A stretch of DNA of 56,840 nucleotides. Origin: an uncultured Spirochaetales bacterium (lineage in GTDB: Bacteria; Spirochaetota; Spirochaetia; Sphaerochaetales; Sphaerochaetaceae). The notes beneath the pieces were generated by a model. That model saw only the letters and a list, made by a program, of their open reading frames with translations, was not told the DNA's origin and did no database searches. Shown in pieces: positions 31,450-44,068 of the stretch. Position 1 is the first letter of the stretch. Each line of letters starts with the position of its first letter. The stretch spans positions 1 through 56,840 of the forward strand of contig CAMEQB010000002.1 in the NCBI GenBank assembly GCA_945932505.1, given 5' to 3'. The translations under genes and the position numbers were made by a program.

Positions 31450-31713
31450 ATGAAGTACAGGGAAAATGTAAGACATGAACTAGATCGTAGAGCCAAGGTC
31501 ATCATAATCCTTGGAATAGTATTGAGCTTTCTTGTGATAATGGTACCCCTATGGCAGAAAGGTTCTGCAGCCACTATCTCAATGAAGACGATGAAGGCGG
31601 AAGAGAGACTTGATGGCTTAGAGAAGGAAGAAAGAGTTCTTCTATCATCGCTAAGTACAGTTGAAGACAACACCATAAGGGAAGAAGTTGCCCTTGCAAT
31701 GGCAGACTTTTAA
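31450..31713 (+). CDS. ftsL: FtsL-like cell division protein
   Basis: 87 aa bitopic protein with one TM segment and coiled-coil between rsmH and ftsW. Confidence 0.6.
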   Translation: MKYRENVRHELDRRAKVIIILGIVLSFLVIMVPLWQKGSAATISMKTMKAEERLDGLEKEERVLLSSLSTVEDNTIREEVALAMADF

Positions 31714-31758: not shown

Positions 31759-32901
31759 ATGAAAGAGCAGAGCATCAGTTATTATGACGACTATGTAGAC
31801 GACAATTATGTAGTGAAAGAAGGGGAGGGCTTCTTCTCTCCTTTCACTTTTTTATGCTCTGTTTTGGTTTTATCACTATTTGGCTTTATTGCGCTTTTAT
31901 CCAGCACCATGGACAAAGCTATCGCTGAGGGTGTTCCGTTCTATAGTTATTTGGGAAAAGAGTTGTTAGGTGCAGTGTTGGGGCTGGTATTGGGTATTCT
32001 TACATATCTTGTTCCAGATAATATCCTCAATAAGATACACTTTGTTACATGCCCGATTTCAATTGTTTTATTGACTCTATCTAAGTTTGTTTCGCACTTG
32101 AGTTTTCTTTCTTTCTCAGGTGGAGTCTTCTCATTATTTACACTTGTATATTTTATTGCTTGGAGCGTTCCTGTTGTTATGGAAAAGGAAAGAAAGGGCT
32201 TTCCTCTCCTAGCCATCATCCCGTTCTCTATTATATATCTTGCATTCATCGGTTATACTGCAGGTCTGGGTTGGTATGTTGTGGGCTTAGTAATAATTAT
32301 TGCCACTGCTTCCCAGTTTGAAGCAGGAAAGGGATATCTCTTTTTCTTTGTCCTTACAGGGCTTGTGATACTTTTTCTACTCTCCATGATTCCTAGTGTG
32401 TTCAATAGCGTCTCTTCATCAGTTCTTCCTGTAAATGACACCTCTCTTTATAACAAGGATCTACTTGTTTCAAGAATGGCTATAAAAGACGGAGGCATGT
32501 CAGGCTCTGGACTTGGACAAGGCCTATATAAGTTGGGAGCTTTGGAGACACCTCATAAAGAGTTTATCTTCGCAACAATCTTTGAGGAGACCGGTCTTAT
32601 TGGCCTCAGTCTTATTCTTTTTCCTTCAATTATCATATTGATTGTGGGTATAAGGACAGCAAACAGAGCTAGAAGCAAGAAAGAGTTTTCTGTATCTGCC
32701 ATAGTTATAGGTGGTGTATCGTTAATAGTATTTGCCGTTCTATTAAATATTCTCCGTGTCATGGGCTTCAATCCATTTGGAGGCTTGTATCTACCATTCT
32801 TCTCATATGATCCCCTCAGCGAAGCTTTATTTGTATTTTTAAGTGTAATTCTATATAGACTTATATATAGAGAGGGAAGGGAGAAAGATGACAAGGAGTA
32901 G
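31759..32901 (+). CDS. ftsW: SEDS-family protein FtsW-like, with altered conserved motifs
   Basis: 380 aa; about 10 TM; GSGLGQGLYKLGALETPHKEFIFATIFEETGLIG corresponds to the canonical GxGLGxSxxKLxYLPEAHTDFIFAIIxEELG. Confidence 0.85.
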   Translation: MKEQSISYYDDYVDDNYVVKEGEGFFSPFTFLCSVLVLSLFGFIALLSSTMDKAIAEGVPFYSYLGKELLGAVLGLVLGILTYLVPDNILNKIHFVTCPISIVLLTLSKFVSHLSFLSFSGGVFSLFTLVYFIAWSVPVVMEKERKGFPLLAIIPFSIIYLAFIGYTAGLGWYVVGLVIIIATASQFEAGKGYLFFFVLTGLVILFLLSMIPSVFNSVSSSVLPVNDTSLYNKDLLVSRMAIKDGGMSGSGLGQGLYKLGALETPHKEFIFATIFEETGLIGLSLILFPSIIILIVGIRTANRARSKKEFSVSAIVIGGVSLIVFAVLLNILRVMGFNPFGGLYLPFFSYDPLSEALFVFLSVILYRLIYREGREKDDKE

Positions 32902-33619
32902 AAAAATCTTTTTTATGTCTTTTTCTCTTTTAACTATCATATTCCTTATTCTCTCAGCGTCCATTGTAGGACGTTTTACTATTAAGAGCGTCGAAGTGAA
33001 AGAAATACCTGAGACATGGAATGTAATGTCACTATTACTAAGAGAAAAGGGACGAAATGTATTGTCTCTTAATAAGAGGGGAATAAAGAAAGAAATAGAG
33101 AAGCTTATATACATAGAAAGGGCTGATGTTGGAGTTCACGACAATGTTCTTACTGTCACTGGCATTCTACCTCAATGTGGCGTGCTTCTTTATGATGGGA
33201 GAAGAACAGCATTTGTAGGAGAGTGTGAAAAGGGAGAAATCGACAGTAAGGATTATATTGCCTTACAGGGTGGATTTCTCACTCTGGAAGTTACTCCTGT
33301 ATTGTTTGATATAATATTGGGTTCAAATGATGAAAAATATACATCTTTAATGATGACACTGTCACACGCTTTTGAATCTTCTGGCTTGATAACAAATGCC
33401 GAATATGACAATAATAAACCTAGTATATTCTCAGGCTCGTTGACTCTTTACTTAGATAGTGTAGAAGCAGTTCTTATCATTAAGGATCTAAGGAAAGTCG
33501 ATAGACTTGAAGAGTGTCTTGAAATAATCAAAGAGGATTATATTTCCTCTAATGATAGAATGTTAGAGAGAGCTAAGGAATATGTCCTTGACGACTCTCT
33601 CATGGTAGTAAAGAGGTAA
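32888..33619 (+). CDS. ftsQ: FtsQ/DivIB-like cell division protein
   Basis: 243 aa; N-terminal TM and POTRA-like segment (FTIKSVEVKEIPETWNVMSLLLREKGRNVLSLNKRGIKKEIEKL); dcw position. Confidence 0.65.
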   Translation: MTRSRKIFFMSFSLLTIIFLILSASIVGRFTIKSVEVKEIPETWNVMSLLLREKGRNVLSLNKRGIKKEIEKLIYIERADVGVHDNVLTVTGILPQCGVLLYDGRRTAFVGECEKGEIDSKDYIALQGGFLTLEVTPVLFDIILGSNDEKYTSLMMTLSHAFESSGLITNAEYDNNKPSIFSGSLTLYLDSVEAVLIIKDLRKVDRLEECLEIIKEDYISSNDRMLERAKEYVLDDSLMVVKR

Positions 33620-33623
33620 GGCT

Positions 33624-34853
33624 GTGGCTGCAGACAAAACGATAGTAGGATTGGATATAGGTACAAGTTCCACAAGAGTCGCCGTCGGTTCTGTCTCCAG
33701 AGATGGACAGCTGGTGATAGAGAGTGTTGTCGAACGCCCAAGCGAAGGTGTAAAGAACGGCTCTATTGTCAACATTGAACAGACAATGAAGACAATAGGA
33801 AGTGTAATTGGTGAAGCTGAAGTACAGGCCGGTACAGAGATTTCATCTGTCATCATCGGTATCGGAGGGGACCAGATCAAAGGCATAAAGAGTAATGGTG
33901 TCGTAGGTATCAACTCCAAAGACCAGGAGATAACCAAAGACGATATCAGACGCTCCATCGATGTTGCCAGAAATATCCAGCTTCCTCAGAATACAGAGAT
34001 CCTTCATTCTCTTGTCCAGGATTTCTATGTGGATTCACGCTCTGGCATCAAGGACCCTGTAGATATGCTGGGACATAGGTTAGATACTAAGATTCTCCTT
34101 GTCTTGGGTTCTTCTCCAATAATCCAGAATCAGAAGAAGTGTGTACATAAAACTGGTCTTCAGGTTCAGAAAGTTGTGTTCCAGACTCTTGCAGATGCAG
34201 AAGTGGTTCTATCCCCTGAAGAGAAAGATATGGGAGCCATCGTCATTAATATCGGATCTGGGTCTACAAACTATATAGCATACGCCGGTGGTGCACCTGT
34301 ACATGTAGGTGGCATAAATCGTGGAAGTGACCTTGTTACTTCCGATATCGCATACCTATTCCAGCTTCCAAAGGCTGCAGCTGAGTCACTAAAGCTTACT
34401 GACGGTTCCTGCTATAGCCCTGGAATAGACGAAAACGACATGATGGTCACACCTGCTCTTGGGGGTAAGCCGGCTATCAGAATGCCTAGGAAAGAGTTTG
34501 CAAAAGTAATAGAAGCAAGAATGGCAGAGATACTGTTGATGATTCAGCAGGATTTACAAGATAACCAGATTCAAGGACCTTTCGGTGCAGGAATAGTTCT
34601 TGTAGGTGGTGGAGCATTAATGGGAGGAGTGACAGAGTTGGCTGCAGAGATATTCCGTCTTCCTTCCCGTATCGGATTCCCTGAGGCTATAAGCGGATTG
34701 GACAGGACATATATCGATCCAAAATATTCAACAGTCTTGGGTCTATTTAAGAGTGAGGCCAAAAGATTTCGTGACAACAACGATATTTCTGGCGTCAAAG
34801 AGAAGAAAGGCTTCGGATCAAAAGTCAAGAGCCTCTTTGGTAAGTTATTTTAA
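33624..34853 (+). CDS. ftsA: Cell division protein FtsA
   Basis: 409 aa; TIVGLDIGTSSTRVAVG, GIGGDQIKGIKSNGVVGI, GAIVINIGSGSTNYIAY; GTG start. Confidence 0.94.
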   Translation: MAADKTIVGLDIGTSSTRVAVGSVSRDGQLVIESVVERPSEGVKNGSIVNIEQTMKTIGSVIGEAEVQAGTEISSVIIGIGGDQIKGIKSNGVVGINSKDQEITKDDIRRSIDVARNIQLPQNTEILHSLVQDFYVDSRSGIKDPVDMLGHRLDTKILLVLGSSPIIQNQKKCVHKTGLQVQKVVFQTLADAEVVLSPEEKDMGAIVINIGSGSTNYIAYAGGAPVHVGGINRGSDLVTSDIAYLFQLPKAAAESLKLTDGSCYSPGIDENDMMVTPALGGKPAIRMPRKEFAKVIEARMAEILLMIQQDLQDNQIQGPFGAGIVLVGGGALMGGVTELAAEIFRLPSRIGFPEAISGLDRTYIDPKYSTVLGLFKSEAKRFRDNNDISGVKEKKGFGSKVKSLFGKLF

Positions 34854-34862
34854 GGAGCTGAG

Positions 34863-36125
34863 ATGAGCTTTAATTTATTTGATATTGAAGACACTACTAC
34901 AGGAGAACAGGCTACACCTACAATAATCAAAGTCGTTGGAGTAGGTGGAGGCGGTGGCAACGCTGTAAACAGAATGATTGCCAATGGTCTGAAGAAAGTA
35001 TCCTTTGTTGCATTGAATACTGATGTTCAGGCTCTACAGCGCTCTAATGCCCAGACAAGAATCGCCATAGGTAAGGAGCTTACAGGAGGACTTGGTGCCG
35101 GTGGTCAGCCAGAAATCGGAGAGAAGGCTGCACAGGAAAGCAAGGAAGAGATCAAGAAAGAGCTTGAAAATGCAGATATGGTCTTTATTACAGCAGGTAT
35201 GGGCGGTGGAACTGGAACAGGTGCCGCTGCTGTAGTTGCTGAAATAGCAAAGAGCTGCAACGCTTTGACAGTTGCAGTTGTAACTACTCCATTTACATTC
35301 GAAGGAAAGAAGAAGTTAAGTCTTGCTGAGCAGGGTATCGAGAAACTACGTAAGAGTGTAGATACTCTCATCATCATTCCTAACCAGCACTTATTGAATG
35401 TTGTAGAGCAGAACACTCCTATCAAGAAAGCATTCCTTCTTGCAGACTCCGCCCTATTGCAGGCTGTACAGGGCATCTCGGACCTTATTACTGAGCCAGG
35501 TGAAATCAACATCGACTTTGCAGACGTAAAGACAGTAATGAAGGGTAAGGGTGACGCTCTTATCGGACTTGGATTTGGAGAAGGAACAAATAGAGCTGTT
35601 GAAGCAGCAAAGCAGTCTATCAACAACCCGCTATTGGAGAATGCATCTATAGAAGGTGCAAAGGCAGTACTGGTCAACATTGCTGGTGGTGATAACCTTA
35701 CACTCCAGGAGTATCAGGATGTAGTTGAGCTCATTACTGCAAACGTTGACGAAGAAGCTCTTATTACTGCAGGTCAGTCCTATAACCCTGCACTTGGAGA
35801 GAGAATCAGAGTCACTGTGGTCGCTACAGGCTTCGAGCATCGCTCTGTTAGCACTGGTGCCAATGCTGCAGAGATCTTCGGAACAAAGAATGGAAAACCG
35901 GAAGAAGAAAACAATGAAGTTCCTCAGTTCAATAGGCGTCACGAAGAGGCTCCTCAGAAGAAAGAGAACAGCTATGAAAGAGAAAAAGAGAGCAATAAGG
36001 ACTCCGGCGTAATCAACATTAATCGTTGGACAGACCTTAAGAACCAGCTTAATCTCAGAAGCAGTAATTCTACTGATTATACAACACCTTCTATTTTGAG
36101 AATGAAGAACGATGATGACCAATGA
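34863..36125 (+). CDS. ftsZ: Cell division protein FtsZ
   Basis: 420 aa; [63 protein letters not shown]. Confidence 0.97.
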
Positions 36126-37076: not shown

Positions 37077-37754
37077 ATGAAGCGGAAAAAACTGAATATA
37101 GAATCCTTCTCATACTATGGAGCGGAAATAAGATATATCGGAGCCCTTCCTGATGAAAATACTGTCTTTCTTTCAGGAGGAAAGAGTATGGGGAGAGAAG
37201 GGATAGTTGCAATGTATCGCTCAAGCTTGGAGGCTGCGGCAAATGAATGGAGCGTCTCTTATATTCCAGGACTCCAATACTCAGAAGCTGTAGAGAGAGG
37301 ATTATATGAGAGAGATAAGGGCGCTCTCTTTGCCTTTGTACCTATGGGAATAAAGTGCGCGTCCCTTTCTCTTATCTCTAGGTGTCTTGTAACTGGAGGC
37401 GGTGTCATATCCACAGTCAATGACGATTCTGTCTTCTCTTTAGAAGCTTTATCATCTTGTCGTAGCTTGGCTCACTCTCTTTCAAGAGCTACAATAATAG
37501 GTAATGAGAACCTCTCATCTATACCTTATTCTATAATGAGTGCGTTGGATGAAGGTAGGGACGTGGGAGTGTTGGAAAGTGCACTGAATGGTAAAGGAGT
37601 CAGAAACCTGGTACGGGAGGGAGCTCCCATAGTAAGGAGTTTTTCTGATTTTCTATCTACTCCACGTTATATATCTTTTCCATATTCAAAAGGAAAGTAT
37701 GGCATAATGGGAGAGCGTTTCGGGCTATTGGATATAGAAAGACATGAAAAATAA
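37077..37754 (+). CDS. Divergent DprA/Smf-like Rossmann protein
   Basis: 225 aa; gapped resemblance to DprA: GVISTVNDDSVFSLEALSSCRSLAHSLSRATIIG, LDEGRDVGVLESALNGKGVRNLVREGAPIV; xer-hslV context. Confidence 0.6.
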   Translation: MKRKKLNIESFSYYGAEIRYIGALPDENTVFLSGGKSMGREGIVAMYRSSLEAAANEWSVSYIPGLQYSEAVERGLYERDKGALFAFVPMGIKCASLSLISRCLVTGGGVISTVNDDSVFSLEALSSCRSLAHSLSRATIIGNENLSSIPYSIMSALDEGRDVGVLESALNGKGVRNLVREGAPIVRSFSDFLSTPRYISFPYSKGKYGIMGERFGLLDIERHEK

Positions 37755-40552: not shown

Positions 40553-41638
40553 ATGCAGTATATAACCATTGTTGCAGATAGCTATGAAGAAGCGGCGGAA
40601 AAAGCGAGAAAAGAGTATGGCGATGCCATACGTATTCATTCCCGCCGCGATTTTACAACTCCAGGTGGTCTCTTTACACGAAAGATGAAAAAGTGTGAGA
40701 TCACTTGTTATATCTCAACCTCTCCACTGGAAGAAAAGACAGTGGGACAGAGAGATATGAATGAATTTGAGAAAGAAGCAAAGACTCCAGACCCACATAA
40801 GCTTACAACGCAAGAACGTCTTAATACAGAGATACATCGAGGCACGGAGGAAGGATATAAGAAAGCTGAAAGGCTTTTGGAGGAAAACTATATTTCAGGC
40901 CCATTGAGGGAAAAGCTTTTGGAAGGACTTTCTTGTACAAGTGACGAGTGCTCCAGAATACTAAGTGAAAGAATACTTGAAAATACAAAGATGGATTATG
41001 AAGCACAGATTCATCCTTCCCGTGTGGTAGTTTTCTTGGGTCCTACAGGTGCAGGAAAGACTACAACCCTGGCAAAGGTTGCTTGGCTATACAAATCCAG
41101 TGGCAAGAAAGTTGGAATCATAACTCTGGATGCATATAGAGTAGGCGCCTATGAGCAGATAGCCGCCTTTGGTGAAGGGTTGGGTATTCCAGTAGAGAAA
41201 GTCGTTAGAGAAGACCAATTGATGGTAGCTATGGAGAAGTTTTCATACTTCGATCTTGTTCTTGTAGATACTATGGGGTTAAGTAGTAAAGACTTGGAGC
41301 TTAATCTTAGACTAAAGGGGCTGGGCTTACAGCTTTCAAGACTCAACACTACTTTTACACTGATAGTCTCTGCAAGCATGAAAGAAGAAGATATGATGAG
41401 ACACTACGAACGATATAAAGATGACTTCTCCATCACTTCAATAATCGTAACAAAACTTGATGAGTCTATAACAATCGGAAACGCCCTCTCTTTTGCATAC
41501 TCAATTAATAAGCCTATTCTCTTCTTCACTGACGGGCAGAAAGTCCCTGAAGACTTGGAGAAGGCATCTACAGAGGTGATACTTGGTAACTTAAGAGGTT
41601 TCGGCCTTGATATGAGGGCATATAGGGGACAGCTTTGA
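40553..41638 (+). CDS. flhF: FlhF-like SRP-type GTPase
   Basis: 361 aa; VVFLGPTGAGKTTTLAKVAWLY, GIITLDAYRVGAYEQIAAFGEGLGIP, LVLVDTMGLSSKD, IIVTKLDES. Confidence 0.82.
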   Translation: MQYITIVADSYEEAAEKARKEYGDAIRIHSRRDFTTPGGLFTRKMKKCEITCYISTSPLEEKTVGQRDMNEFEKEAKTPDPHKLTTQERLNTEIHRGTEEGYKKAERLLEENYISGPLREKLLEGLSCTSDECSRILSERILENTKMDYEAQIHPSRVVVFLGPTGAGKTTTLAKVAWLYKSSGKKVGIITLDAYRVGAYEQIAAFGEGLGIPVEKVVREDQLMVAMEKFSYFDLVLVDTMGLSSKDLELNLRLKGLGLQLSRLNTTFTLIVSASMKEEDMMRHYERYKDDFSITSIIVTKLDESITIGNALSFAYSINKPILFFTDGQKVPEDLEKASTEVILGNLRGFGLDMRAYRGQL

Positions 41639-42550
41639 TTATATTTTTCCGCTGTTTTTCATAACTTTTTCGATTTTTTCCACCAGAACTGGTATCTGGG
41701 AGGTGTCACTCCAAAGATAGTAAGAGCCCACTGATATTCCATCCAACATACGGGATGGAAGAGTAAGGGCTCTTTCTGTTGTTACAGAAGAGGGTGGCGT
41801 AATAAACCTTACAAGGTTATTTAATACTTCTTCGTCCACTTTTCCGTCGTACGCCACGATAAAGCCCTTATTTGAGATAATGGCTGCATCCTCATCTATC
41901 TCCATCTCTTTTTTTACTTCTTCAAGAATGGCTTGAATTTCAGAATCCAAGGTAAGAGTTATTGATGAACCATGGACTGTTGTTTTGCCTATCTCACCCA
42001 TGGCTTTCAATGTATCATTGAAGAGCTCTTCTATTCCTCCATTTCCTTTTGTAGGCGTAGGAGCGTAGCCAAGAATAGATGAGGCGATATTATATGGGTA
42101 GTGCCTAGTCTCTTTTTCAGAGAACTCGATATAACTAGAAAGAGATTCCTCTTTTATTCTTACGTTGATCATATCTATTTGAGGATTTGTTATTGATGAA
42201 GTGAGAGGAATGAAGGTTTCTCCTTTTTCTAATAGTGACGCTATCTCGACGGCATCGTAATCTGAGTAATCTGAAAGGAAGGATGATATCTGCTGGATCT
42301 TATCTTTTTCTGTTCTTACAGTAAAACCATAGTCTGGAGCTTGGATTGCTAGAATTCTACCGTTTCTATCATAGATAGTCCCTCTTATATTGGTTGTAGA
42401 TACAATAGGATCTTTGTATCCCCAAGAAACAAGTTCTTCGCTTAAGCATAAAGATATGGCTCCATAGATGATAAGAGCTACTAAAGCTAAGGCTAATAGA
42501 ATAAGAATGACCCCTCTGGGCTTGTTGCCATTGTCTTCCATATTAAACAT
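41639..42550 (-). CDS. Class B PBP-like protein retaining the pedestal/dimerisation region but lacking a transpeptidase domain
   Basis: 303 aa; N-terminal TM, NIRGTIYDRNGRILAIQAPDYGFTV, KETRHYPYNIASSILGYAPTPTKGNGGIEELFNDTLKAMG, SITLTLDSEIQAILEEV; no SxxK, SxN or KTG motif. Confidence 0.75.
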   Translation of the reverse strand: MFNMEDNGNKPRGVILILLALALVALIIYGAISLCLSEELVSWGYKDPIVSTTNIRGTIYDRNGRILAIQAPDYGFTVRTEKDKIQQISSFLSDYSDYDAVEIASLLEKGETFIPLTSSITNPQIDMINVRIKEESLSSYIEFSEKETRHYPYNIASSILGYAPTPTKGNGGIEELFNDTLKAMGEIGKTTVHGSSITLTLDSEIQAILEEVKKEMEIDEDAAIISNKGFIVAYDGKVDEEVLNNLVRFITPPSSVTTERALTLPSRMLDGISVGSYYLWSDTSQIPVLVEKIEKVMKNSGKI

Positions 42551-42571
42551 AATAGTTTTGAGAGTGGAGTT

Positions 42572-44068
42572 TTGTCGATAGTGAGTAGAAGCGATTATGA
42601 TGATATGCCCTCAAATGGGGGAGGAAGAAGAGGAAAAGGCAACAAAAGTCTTACTTTAGGTGTCTTGATCTGTATTCTTGTTATTTTGATCATTATTGTG
42701 GTCAGACTAATATTTAAACCAGAAGAGAAATTGGAGGTTTTACCTCCAAATGCTGTAGTGAAAGAAAACTCAGTTACAAACGAAGTATCGGAAGAATCAG
42801 CGACTCCGACTCTTGATGATAATGCTATTGATCTGACTGTGGAGAGTGTTGACGTCGTAGTGGAAGATCCTCTTTCTTCTGAAATAGACGAAACATCAAG
42901 TCTGGAAACAGATAGTGAAGAAGAAATAATCCATGATGAAGAGTCTCAAACCATAGAGGGACAAGACGGTTTTCTTGAGGATACCATTGAAATCGAGGGC
43001 GTTGTAGAAGAATCTAGCGTAGAAACACTGGATGAGACTAATGCAGAAGAGAATGCTGAAGTCCATACACCTCTAGTCGACGAAGAACCTATGGTAGATG
43101 GAAGCGAAGAGGGTAGTCTTGAAAGGGAGATAGTAGAAGATTTCAGTGAAATAGATACTCAAAGCGAAGAAATAGAGACAGAAAACGAGGACGTTATTCC
43201 TGAAACTTCAGAGATAGTAACAGAAGACTATGGTAGTGGAGAAATAAATGATGAAGAGTCTTTTATTGTTCTCGATACACCAAGCGAAGAAAAAGTGGAG
43301 GATGTCACCGAGGAACCAATAATTGTTCCTGTTGTTGAAGATACTATTGATGAACCAATAGAAGAAGTTGAGGAAGAAAGCTTACCTTATGACCCATTTA
43401 TGGAGGAAGATGTAGAGACTTTAAGAAAGGGTCTTGGAGACTTGTTATCAAGAATAGACTTTAGCCTTATTCTCGCTGAAGACGAGCAGACAGTTGAAGA
43501 AGAACTTCCCATAGAAGAATCTATTAATGAAGAAGAGATAGAAAATGGCGACGTTGATATTCCTGTATTCTCTAATGAAAGCGAGAATTTGGTTATTAAG
43601 GAAGCCCAGACAGAGATTGATGACGAAAAACCTCAAATTAACGATAATGATGGGGAATCAATAATCGAGAAAGAGACTCAAAACGATAGTAGCGAAGAAT
43701 TGATCCAAGAAGTATTACTTGATGAAGTAGAATTAGAAGAGAGTTTGAAAGTATCAAAGACCCTTGCTATTGAAGAAAAGAGCGCTTCTATTATTCAGGG
43801 TTCCATTGTAATAGTGGACGGAGAGAGTGTCACTCTACTTTCTACTCCTGGAAAAGCTGTAAAGAGTCCTATTGATGGAGTTGTAAAAGAGGCAAAGAGA
43901 GTAGAAGGGAAGAAGACTATCTCTATTGAGACGGAGGAGGGAGATGTATGGAGATTCTCCGGCTTTGAGAGAGTGAATGTAAAACTCAATCAAAGTGTAA
44001 GAGAGGGGGAAGTTCTTGGAAGCGTCGGAACATCTTCTGGCTCTTCTATCGATATTTCAATCTTATAA
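42572..44068 (+). CDS. Membrane-anchored protein with long Glu/Asp-rich linker and degenerate LytM/M23-like C-terminal domain
   Basis: 498 aa; TM near residues 28-48; C-terminal TPGKAVKSPIDGVVKEAKRVEGKKTISIETEEGDVWRFSGFERVNVKLNQSVREGEVLGSVGTSSGSSIDISIL. TTG start in the track; GTG 42581 is an alternative. Confidence 0.6.
   Translation: MSIVSRSDYDDMPSNGGGRRGKGNKSLTLGVLICILVILIIIVVRLIFKPEEKLEVLPPNAVVKENSVTNEVSEESATPTLDDNAIDLTVESVDVVVEDPLSSEIDETSSLETDSEEEIIHDEESQTIEGQDGFLEDTIEIEGVVEESSVETLDETNAEENAEVHTPLVDEEPMVDGSEEGSLEREIVEDFSEIDTQSEEIETENEDVIPETSEIVTEDYGSGEINDEESFIVLDTPSEEKVEDVTEEPIIVPVVEDTIDEPIEEVEEESLPYDPFMEEDVETLRKGLGDLLSRIDFSLILAEDEQTVEEELPIEESINEEEIENGDVDIPVFSNESENLVIKEAQTEIDDEKPQINDNDGESIIEKETQNDSSEELIQEVLLDEVELEESLKVSKTLAIEEKSASIIQGSIVIVDGESVTLLSTPGKAVKSPIDGVVKEAKRVEGKKTISIETEEGDVWRFSGFERVNVKLNQSVREGEVLGSVGTSSGSSIDISIL

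Follow-up and report, generated by a model that had tools for sequence, protein, structure and literature searches.

A class B penicillin-binding protein lacking its active site and a degenerate FtsW are retained in a spirochaete genus predicted to be free of peptidoglycan

The divergent gene pair and the division gene cluster

The DNA analyzed here, referred to as the window, is a stretch of 56,840 nt from a genome that belongs to Candidatus Ornithospirochaeta, a genus of gut spirochaetes (genus g1, family f1). It carries a divergent pair of genes, one for a truncated penicillin-binding protein (PBP) and one for a LytM-like protein, as well as a series of cell division genes. The features are listed by position in the window, with strand.

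31450-31713, plus strand: 87-aa transmembrane protein with a conserved PLWQ-G motif, candidate FtsL (position, transmembrane segment)
31759-32901, plus strand: FtsW (SEDS) with a degenerate catalytic cavity, catalytic Asp replaced by Glu (PF01098; residue table)
32888-33619, plus strand: FtsQ-like protein between ftsW and ftsA (AF2, Foldseek, POTRA_1 in homologues)
33624-34853, plus strand: FtsA (Pfam; dN/dS 0.025)
34863-36125, plus strand: FtsZ with conserved C-terminal peptide (Pfam; dN/dS 0.012)
41639-42550, minus strand: truncated class B PBP (FtsI/SpoVD-like orthologue), 303 aa, homology-supported start 42541
41642-41983, minus strand: residual transpeptidase edge of the PBP, residues 190-303 (AF2 secondary structure, alignment to PBP C-termini, intermediate homologues)
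42053-42388, minus strand: pedestal (PBP_dimer) domain of the PBP, residues 55-166 (PF03717 match; RG.I.DR.G motif)
42551-42571: intergenic gap between the called starts, overlapped by one sigma-70-like site per strand
42572-44068, plus strand: LytM-like (M23) protein without zinc ligands, 498 aa, homology-supported start GTG 42581

The preliminary description had presented the PBP-like and LytM-like ORFs as divergent, membrane-anchored and both non-catalytic. Pfam and motif comparison confirm this, and both proteins have an N-terminal hydrophobic segment. The starts given by the ORF finder are 21 bases apart. Alignment with relatives supports slightly internal starts, a Met at 42541 (MEDNGNK...) for the PBP and a GTG at 42581 (MSRSDYDDM...) for the LytM-like protein, and with these a gap of about 39 bp is more likely. 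A consensus scan found sigma-70-like sites with a 10/12 match, one on each strand inside 42525-42578, and four sites in the PBP/LytM region where 1.7 (sd 1.6) are expected. These consensus-level sites are compatible with overlapping promoters and shared control of the pair, but they are no evidence for either.

The genus was sampled with the window's own genome and 35 congeners, which are incomplete MAGs (75-99%). A short PBP gene of about 280-340 aa is found at the locus in the own genome and in 32 of the 35 congeners, i.e., wherever the contig extends over the locus (33 genomes); the three misses are contig ends. The gene lies between a convergent flhF and the divergent LytM-like gene, near secA, and where the contig allows, about 10 kb from ftsW. 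The flhF gene (window 40553-41638), for a flagellar-type GTPase, is extremely conserved in the genus (dN/dS 0.014-0.024).

In pairwise comparisons with the nearest relatives of the window, dN/dS is 0.08-0.12 for the PBP, 0.10 for FtsW, 0.15 for the FtsQ-like protein and about 0.3 for the LytM-like protein, and with such low values these genes are not pseudogenes. Since homologues of the pair are found at the same locus throughout the genus and are under constraint, neither ORF is an assembly accident, and a pseudogene or assembly artefact is ruled out. The close divergent spacing had also been offered as evidence of a new module. However, this arrangement of the PBP and LytM genes is of ancient origin, and other families of the class have it with active enzymes. 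By itself it thus gives no support to a new module, and a novel module defined by the arrangement is rejected.

The truncated PBP and the degenerate LytM-like protein

A Pfam search of the window PBP detected the pedestal domain PF03717 (E=1.4e-11, 45.6 bits against a cut-off of 24.4), but no match to the transpeptidase domain PF00905 at E<=10. In the alignment with homologues the RG.I.DR.G motif of the pedestal is nearly invariant, and the columns of the SxxK, SxN and KTG motifs are empty in the window protein. The nearest PDB relatives by sequence are class B PBPs. In an AF2 model (mean pLDDT 83.9) a transmembrane helix forms the N-terminal anchor, and residues 51-301 align to PBP chains from the pedestal to the C-terminal helix. 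One such alignment is to 7rcz 56-581, with Z 14.3 and an rmsd of 3.5 A over 236 residues, and Foldseek returned PBP matches with E down to 5e-12. Because the model spans a whole PBP from pedestal to C-terminal helix, the central part of the transpeptidase domain has been removed and its edges kept: the remnant has the first helix and two strands as well as the last strand and helix, and the SxxK, SxN and KTG regions are gone. The protein, the sole class B PBP of the lineage, has therefore had its active site excised, and the anchor, the pedestal and the transpeptidase edges remain.

In G038, G051 and members of the family genera g27, g29, g31, g33, g37, g41 and g42, the gene at the equivalent position encodes a full-length PBP (about 540-560 aa) in which SVFK, SxN and KTG are present, and the locus order around the full-length orthologue is the same in G038, G051 and family members. 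Thus the short gene of the genus is its syntenic orthologue. PBPs of intermediate length (368-391 aa as called) are found in g34 and g39 and have the same C-terminal strand and helix (e.g. PKYIVFMGTVNP...LASQSKI), so that the C-termini of the short and full-length proteins are linked by sequence. Downstream, the genes for these transpeptidase-less intermediates (L137-L139) have other neighbours, and no ftsZ-hslUV synteny is present in the stretch examined; the divergent LytM-like gene is still next to them.

The LytM-like protein consists of a transmembrane segment, a long acidic segment and a C-terminal degenerate M23 domain (PF01551, E=3e-8). In the window protein other residues stand at the zinc-ligand positions H..D and HxH, and the C-terminus reads SSIDISIL. 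The ligands are likewise replaced in the genus and in all the family members read, also where the PBP looks active, and are intact in M23 proteins at the same divergent position in L102 and L104, which are from other families. The degeneration of this protein had been taken as part of an undescribed non-catalytic system. It is family-wide, however, and relatives with a degenerate LytM include ones with complete PBPs, active-looking FtsW and MraY. LytM decay is consequently not coupled to the truncated PBP. From the distribution of intact and replaced ligands, the gene pair is ancient, with LytM decay first and PBP decay later.

The LytM-like protein also has a YDD motif near its N-terminus. 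Among the 53 window genes only FtsW and the LytM-like protein have YDD within the first 30 residues, in the cytoplasmic tails encoded at 31759-31830 and 42581-42620, respectively, and the motif is present in the LytM-like N-termini of most family members read. The shared motif may possibly hint at shared docking of the two proteins. LysM repeats appear to have been lost from the window lineage (with G013, G005 and G030), in which a long acidic low-complexity segment is found instead.

FtsW, the division core and loss of the peptidoglycan pathway

FtsW is present in all 36 genus genomes. The window copy matches PF01098 with 88.1 bits (cut-off 26.4), and its best NCBIfam match is ftsW at 114.7 bits, which is below the equivalog cut-off of 337.5. 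The catalytic position was set by alignment to solved FtsW and RodA, and the D of the (H/Q)xDF motif was taken to be the catalytic Asp. In E. coli FtsW the catalytic Asp is D297 (PMC8765783). Among 26 genus members this position is D in 9, E in 5, Q in 3, L in 3, A in 2 and V, I, S and K in one each; in the outgroup it is D in 14 of 14. An R-W pair, a QPSE stretch and two arginines that are invariant outside the genus are lost within it, and the structural glycines and the EE.G motif are still present. The altered FtsW reported in the preliminary description thus holds as regards a degenerate cavity, but the Glu variant is not diagnostic, because the position is variable within the genus; Asp-to-Glu as a diagnostic trait is rejected, with nine different residues found there. 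Overall sequence drift of FtsW and of the PBP is fast in the genus. Judged by its residues and its distribution, the FtsW of the genus is disarmed yet kept.

In relatives mraY adjoins ftsW. In the genus the 87-aa gene comes immediately after mraW and precedes ftsW. The 87-aa gene is conserved in 22 loci, and Pfam FtsL_2 was detected in one of five homologues, below the cut-off (E=0.0028). The ORF at 32888-33619 is supported by its fold as an FtsQ with a transmembrane segment, a POTRA domain and a beta domain: in the AF2 model (pLDDT 88.6) all five Foldseek matches at E<=1e-3 are FtsQ, and the top structural alignment is FtsQ of the FtsBLQ complex, with Z 9.5 and a poor overall rmsd of 8.4 A over 216 residues. 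POTRA_1 is detected in 8 of 19 homologues (best E 9e-7), and in the window copy at E=0.04, under the cut-off. In two members (G001, G014) the protein is shortened and has no evident POTRA. The dN/dS values indicate that FtsQ, FtsW, the PBP pedestal, FtsA and FtsZ are retained under purifying selection, with FtsA and FtsZ, both intact, being highly conserved.

The ftsI and mur genes had been described as missing from the window; genome profile searches extend the absence of mur genes and ftsI activity, and of crosslinking enzymes, to the genome and the genus. The transpeptidase PF00905, the class A PBP glycosyltransferase PF00912 and MraY were each detected in 0 of 36 genus genomes, as compared with 24 of 24 for both transpeptidase and MraY in the other families of the class that were sampled. 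Alternative crosslinking by L,D-transpeptidases (YkuD) is ruled out, with PF03734 in 0 of 36. Mur-ligase matches number 0-2 per genome in the genus and 4-6 elsewhere; four such proteins from three genomes were examined for Mur ligases hidden as weak matches and are FolC and PgsB-like. Genome profile searches can miss degenerate copies, as shown by PF00905 remnants in G278 and G340 that were seen only by hmmscan. In 139 family genomes the transpeptidase is found in 59 and MraY, over the cut-off, in 62, and the two largely coincide. By its gene content Candidatus Ornithospirochaeta has lost the peptidoglycan pathway. The proposal of a wall-scaffolding system is therefore not supported, as there is probably no wall to scaffold.

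The PgsB-like poly-gamma-glutamate synthases are encoded at L132:313-1251 (contig C93 of the own genome) and L134:793-1899, with 148 and 219 bits against a cut-off of 222.7. They may possibly provide a substitute envelope polymer in a lineage without peptidoglycan.

In a four-gene tree (FtsA, FtsZ, HslU, HslV) the members of the genus group in a single clade, with g29 as its sister. G278 and G340, two genomes of g29, encode a class B PBP of 472-478 aa without SxxK, SxN and KTG (L140:10946-12364 and L141:1708-3144); residual PF00905 is detected by hmmscan at 30.7 bits in G278 and 18.0 in G340. MraY is still present in both, and their FtsW has almost the full set of cavity residues, the catalytic Asp among them. 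These two genomes may possibly make peptidoglycan without penicillin-sensitive crosslinking. A PBP-only tree grouped them with the genus (0.94), a grouping that is contradicted by the four-gene tree and by an AU test (p 0.0018) and is likely to be attraction between relaxed genes. Thus the PBP active site has been lost at least twice, in g29 without loss of MraY.

A putative non-enzymatic division complex

The best explanation of these findings, and one considered probable, is that the peptidoglycan-free genus has a divisome in which the FtsQ-(FtsL)-FtsW-FtsI core is kept as pseudo-enzymes and would serve as a scaffold or signalling complex. In other bacteria the PBP pedestal contacts extracellular loop ECL4 of its SEDS partner and so couples PBP and SEDS (PMC8765783), and S. 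aureus PBP1 retains regulatory functions after loss of its activity (PMC9426605). By analogy with the FtsWIQBL complex, the truncated PBP would dock with its transmembrane helix and pedestal on ECL4 of FtsW and on FtsQL. FtsA and FtsZ would recruit this FtsQ(L)WI pseudo-enzyme complex, which could couple the Z-ring to constriction of the membrane, perhaps the outer membrane, instead of to septal wall synthesis. The degenerate LytM protein, which is divergently encoded and has the N-terminal YDD motif in common with FtsW, probably belongs to this machine as an NlpD-like accessory of older origin. Several points count against this explanation. The catalytic Asp is still present in 9 of the 26 FtsW sequences, and LysM repeats persist in most LytM-like proteins of the genus, which is odd if there is no GlcNAc polymer. 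In addition, the sequences of FtsW and the PBP drift fast, the FtsQ-like protein is shortened in G001 and G014, the assignment of FtsL is weak, no FtsB was identified, and the genus genomes are incomplete.

It is unlikely that the truncated PBP and the LytM-like protein instead form an envelope tether, from the inner membrane to the outer membrane or a capsule, that is unrelated to division and close to the fts genes by inherited synteny. In g34 and g39 the pair is retained without the fts/hslUV neighbourhood in the stretch examined, the LysM and M23 architecture resembles that of envelope proteins, and the PgsB-like genes hint at a capsule. However, relatives have a single class B PBP, which pairs with their single FtsW, and it is to this PBP that the truncated protein is orthologous by synteny. 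The part retained is the pedestal, i.e., the part that binds FtsW, and FtsW, FtsQ, FtsA and FtsZ are all kept.

A second alternative, for which the case is weaker still, is that FtsW, with the pedestal-only PBP as its activator, continues to polymerize some other lipid-linked substrate into a glycan-like product without peptide crosslinking. The retained SEDS family match, the Asp in the nine genus members and the LysM repeats would fit such a polymer, as would the two sister-genus genomes in which the PBP is non-catalytic, the FtsW motifs are intact and MraY is present. In the genus itself, however, the R-W pair, QPSE and the two cavity arginines have been lost along with the Asp, MraY is absent, and the catalytic position varies freely. 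That the genes are vestigial, in slow decay and with no present function, is very improbable, for despite fast drift, lost catalytic residues and further shortening in some members, dN/dS is 0.08-0.15 and the ORFs are intact at the locus in all covering genus genomes, with homologues down to 20-30% identity.

The pseudo-enzyme core proposed here can be compared with several known systems. It resembles the FtsWIQBL core of P. aeruginosa (8bh1, 8p1u) in having FtsW, an FtsI pedestal with transmembrane helix and FtsQ, and the gene order ftsW-ftsQ-ftsA-ftsZ is common to both. It differs in that the transpeptidase active site and the lipid II pathway are missing from the genus and the catalytic residues of FtsW are degenerate; the FtsL is tentative, and FtsB was not identified. 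Degenerate LytM activators of the NlpD/EnvC type have a non-catalytic M23 domain and are anchored to the membrane. The LytM-like proteins of the genus are similar in both respects, and most homologues also have LysM, but the anchor is a transmembrane segment, the window copy has no LysM repeats, and the cognate enzyme of such activators, Amidase_3 (PF01520), was detected in 0 of 36 genus genomes by profile search.

Bullifex porci and Sphaerochaeta are wall-reduced spirochaetes with few PBPs that keep murA-G, murJ and mraY (PMC7738495, PMC4423922). B. porci has murotetrapeptides, spherical cells and growth unaffected by beta-lactams (PMC7738495), and S. coccoides encodes one transpeptidase (PMC4423922). 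The wall-reduced Sphaerochaetaceae, represented here by family genomes that are not equated with the named species, share the degenerate LytM-like neighbour; unlike B. porci and Sphaerochaeta, which keep mur genes and mraY, the genus has no MraY. With peptidoglycan-negative bacteria and mycoplasmas (PMC8406291, PMC8475190) it has in common the loss of peptidoglycan synthesis genes. The peptidoglycan-negative bacteria surveyed lose the SEDS and bPBP genes as well (PMC8406291), whereas the genus retains FtsW, the FtsI pedestal and FtsQ. Loss of peptidoglycan genes is thus already known; what is apparently new is that a disarmed FtsW and FtsI are kept afterwards, of which no description was found in the open-licence literature.

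A broader claim, towards which the evidence leans only slightly, is that in peptidoglycan-free bacteria FtsQ(L)WI is used as a cytokinetic complex with no enzymatic function at all, reached by stepwise loss of catalysis at least twice in one family. If so, wall synthesis can be separated from a structural or signalling role of the septal synthase. Such a role of FtsW and FtsI is hard to test where the enzyme activities are essential, and the genus would be a natural separation-of-function experiment, in which the enzymes are lost and the complex retained. The sister genus would represent a halfway state, with FtsW motifs intact, the PBP disarmed and MraY present, and the cultured coccoid relative Bullifex porci offers an entry point in the laboratory. 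The genus is predicted to be insensitive to beta-lactams.

A minor observation concerns a 225-aa ORF at window positions 37077-37754, in the slot between xer1 and xer2 that is occupied by DprA in relatives (G038, G282, G179). The window copy has no NCBIfam or Pfam match and its dN/dS is 0.045; it is probably a strongly diverged DprA-like protein.
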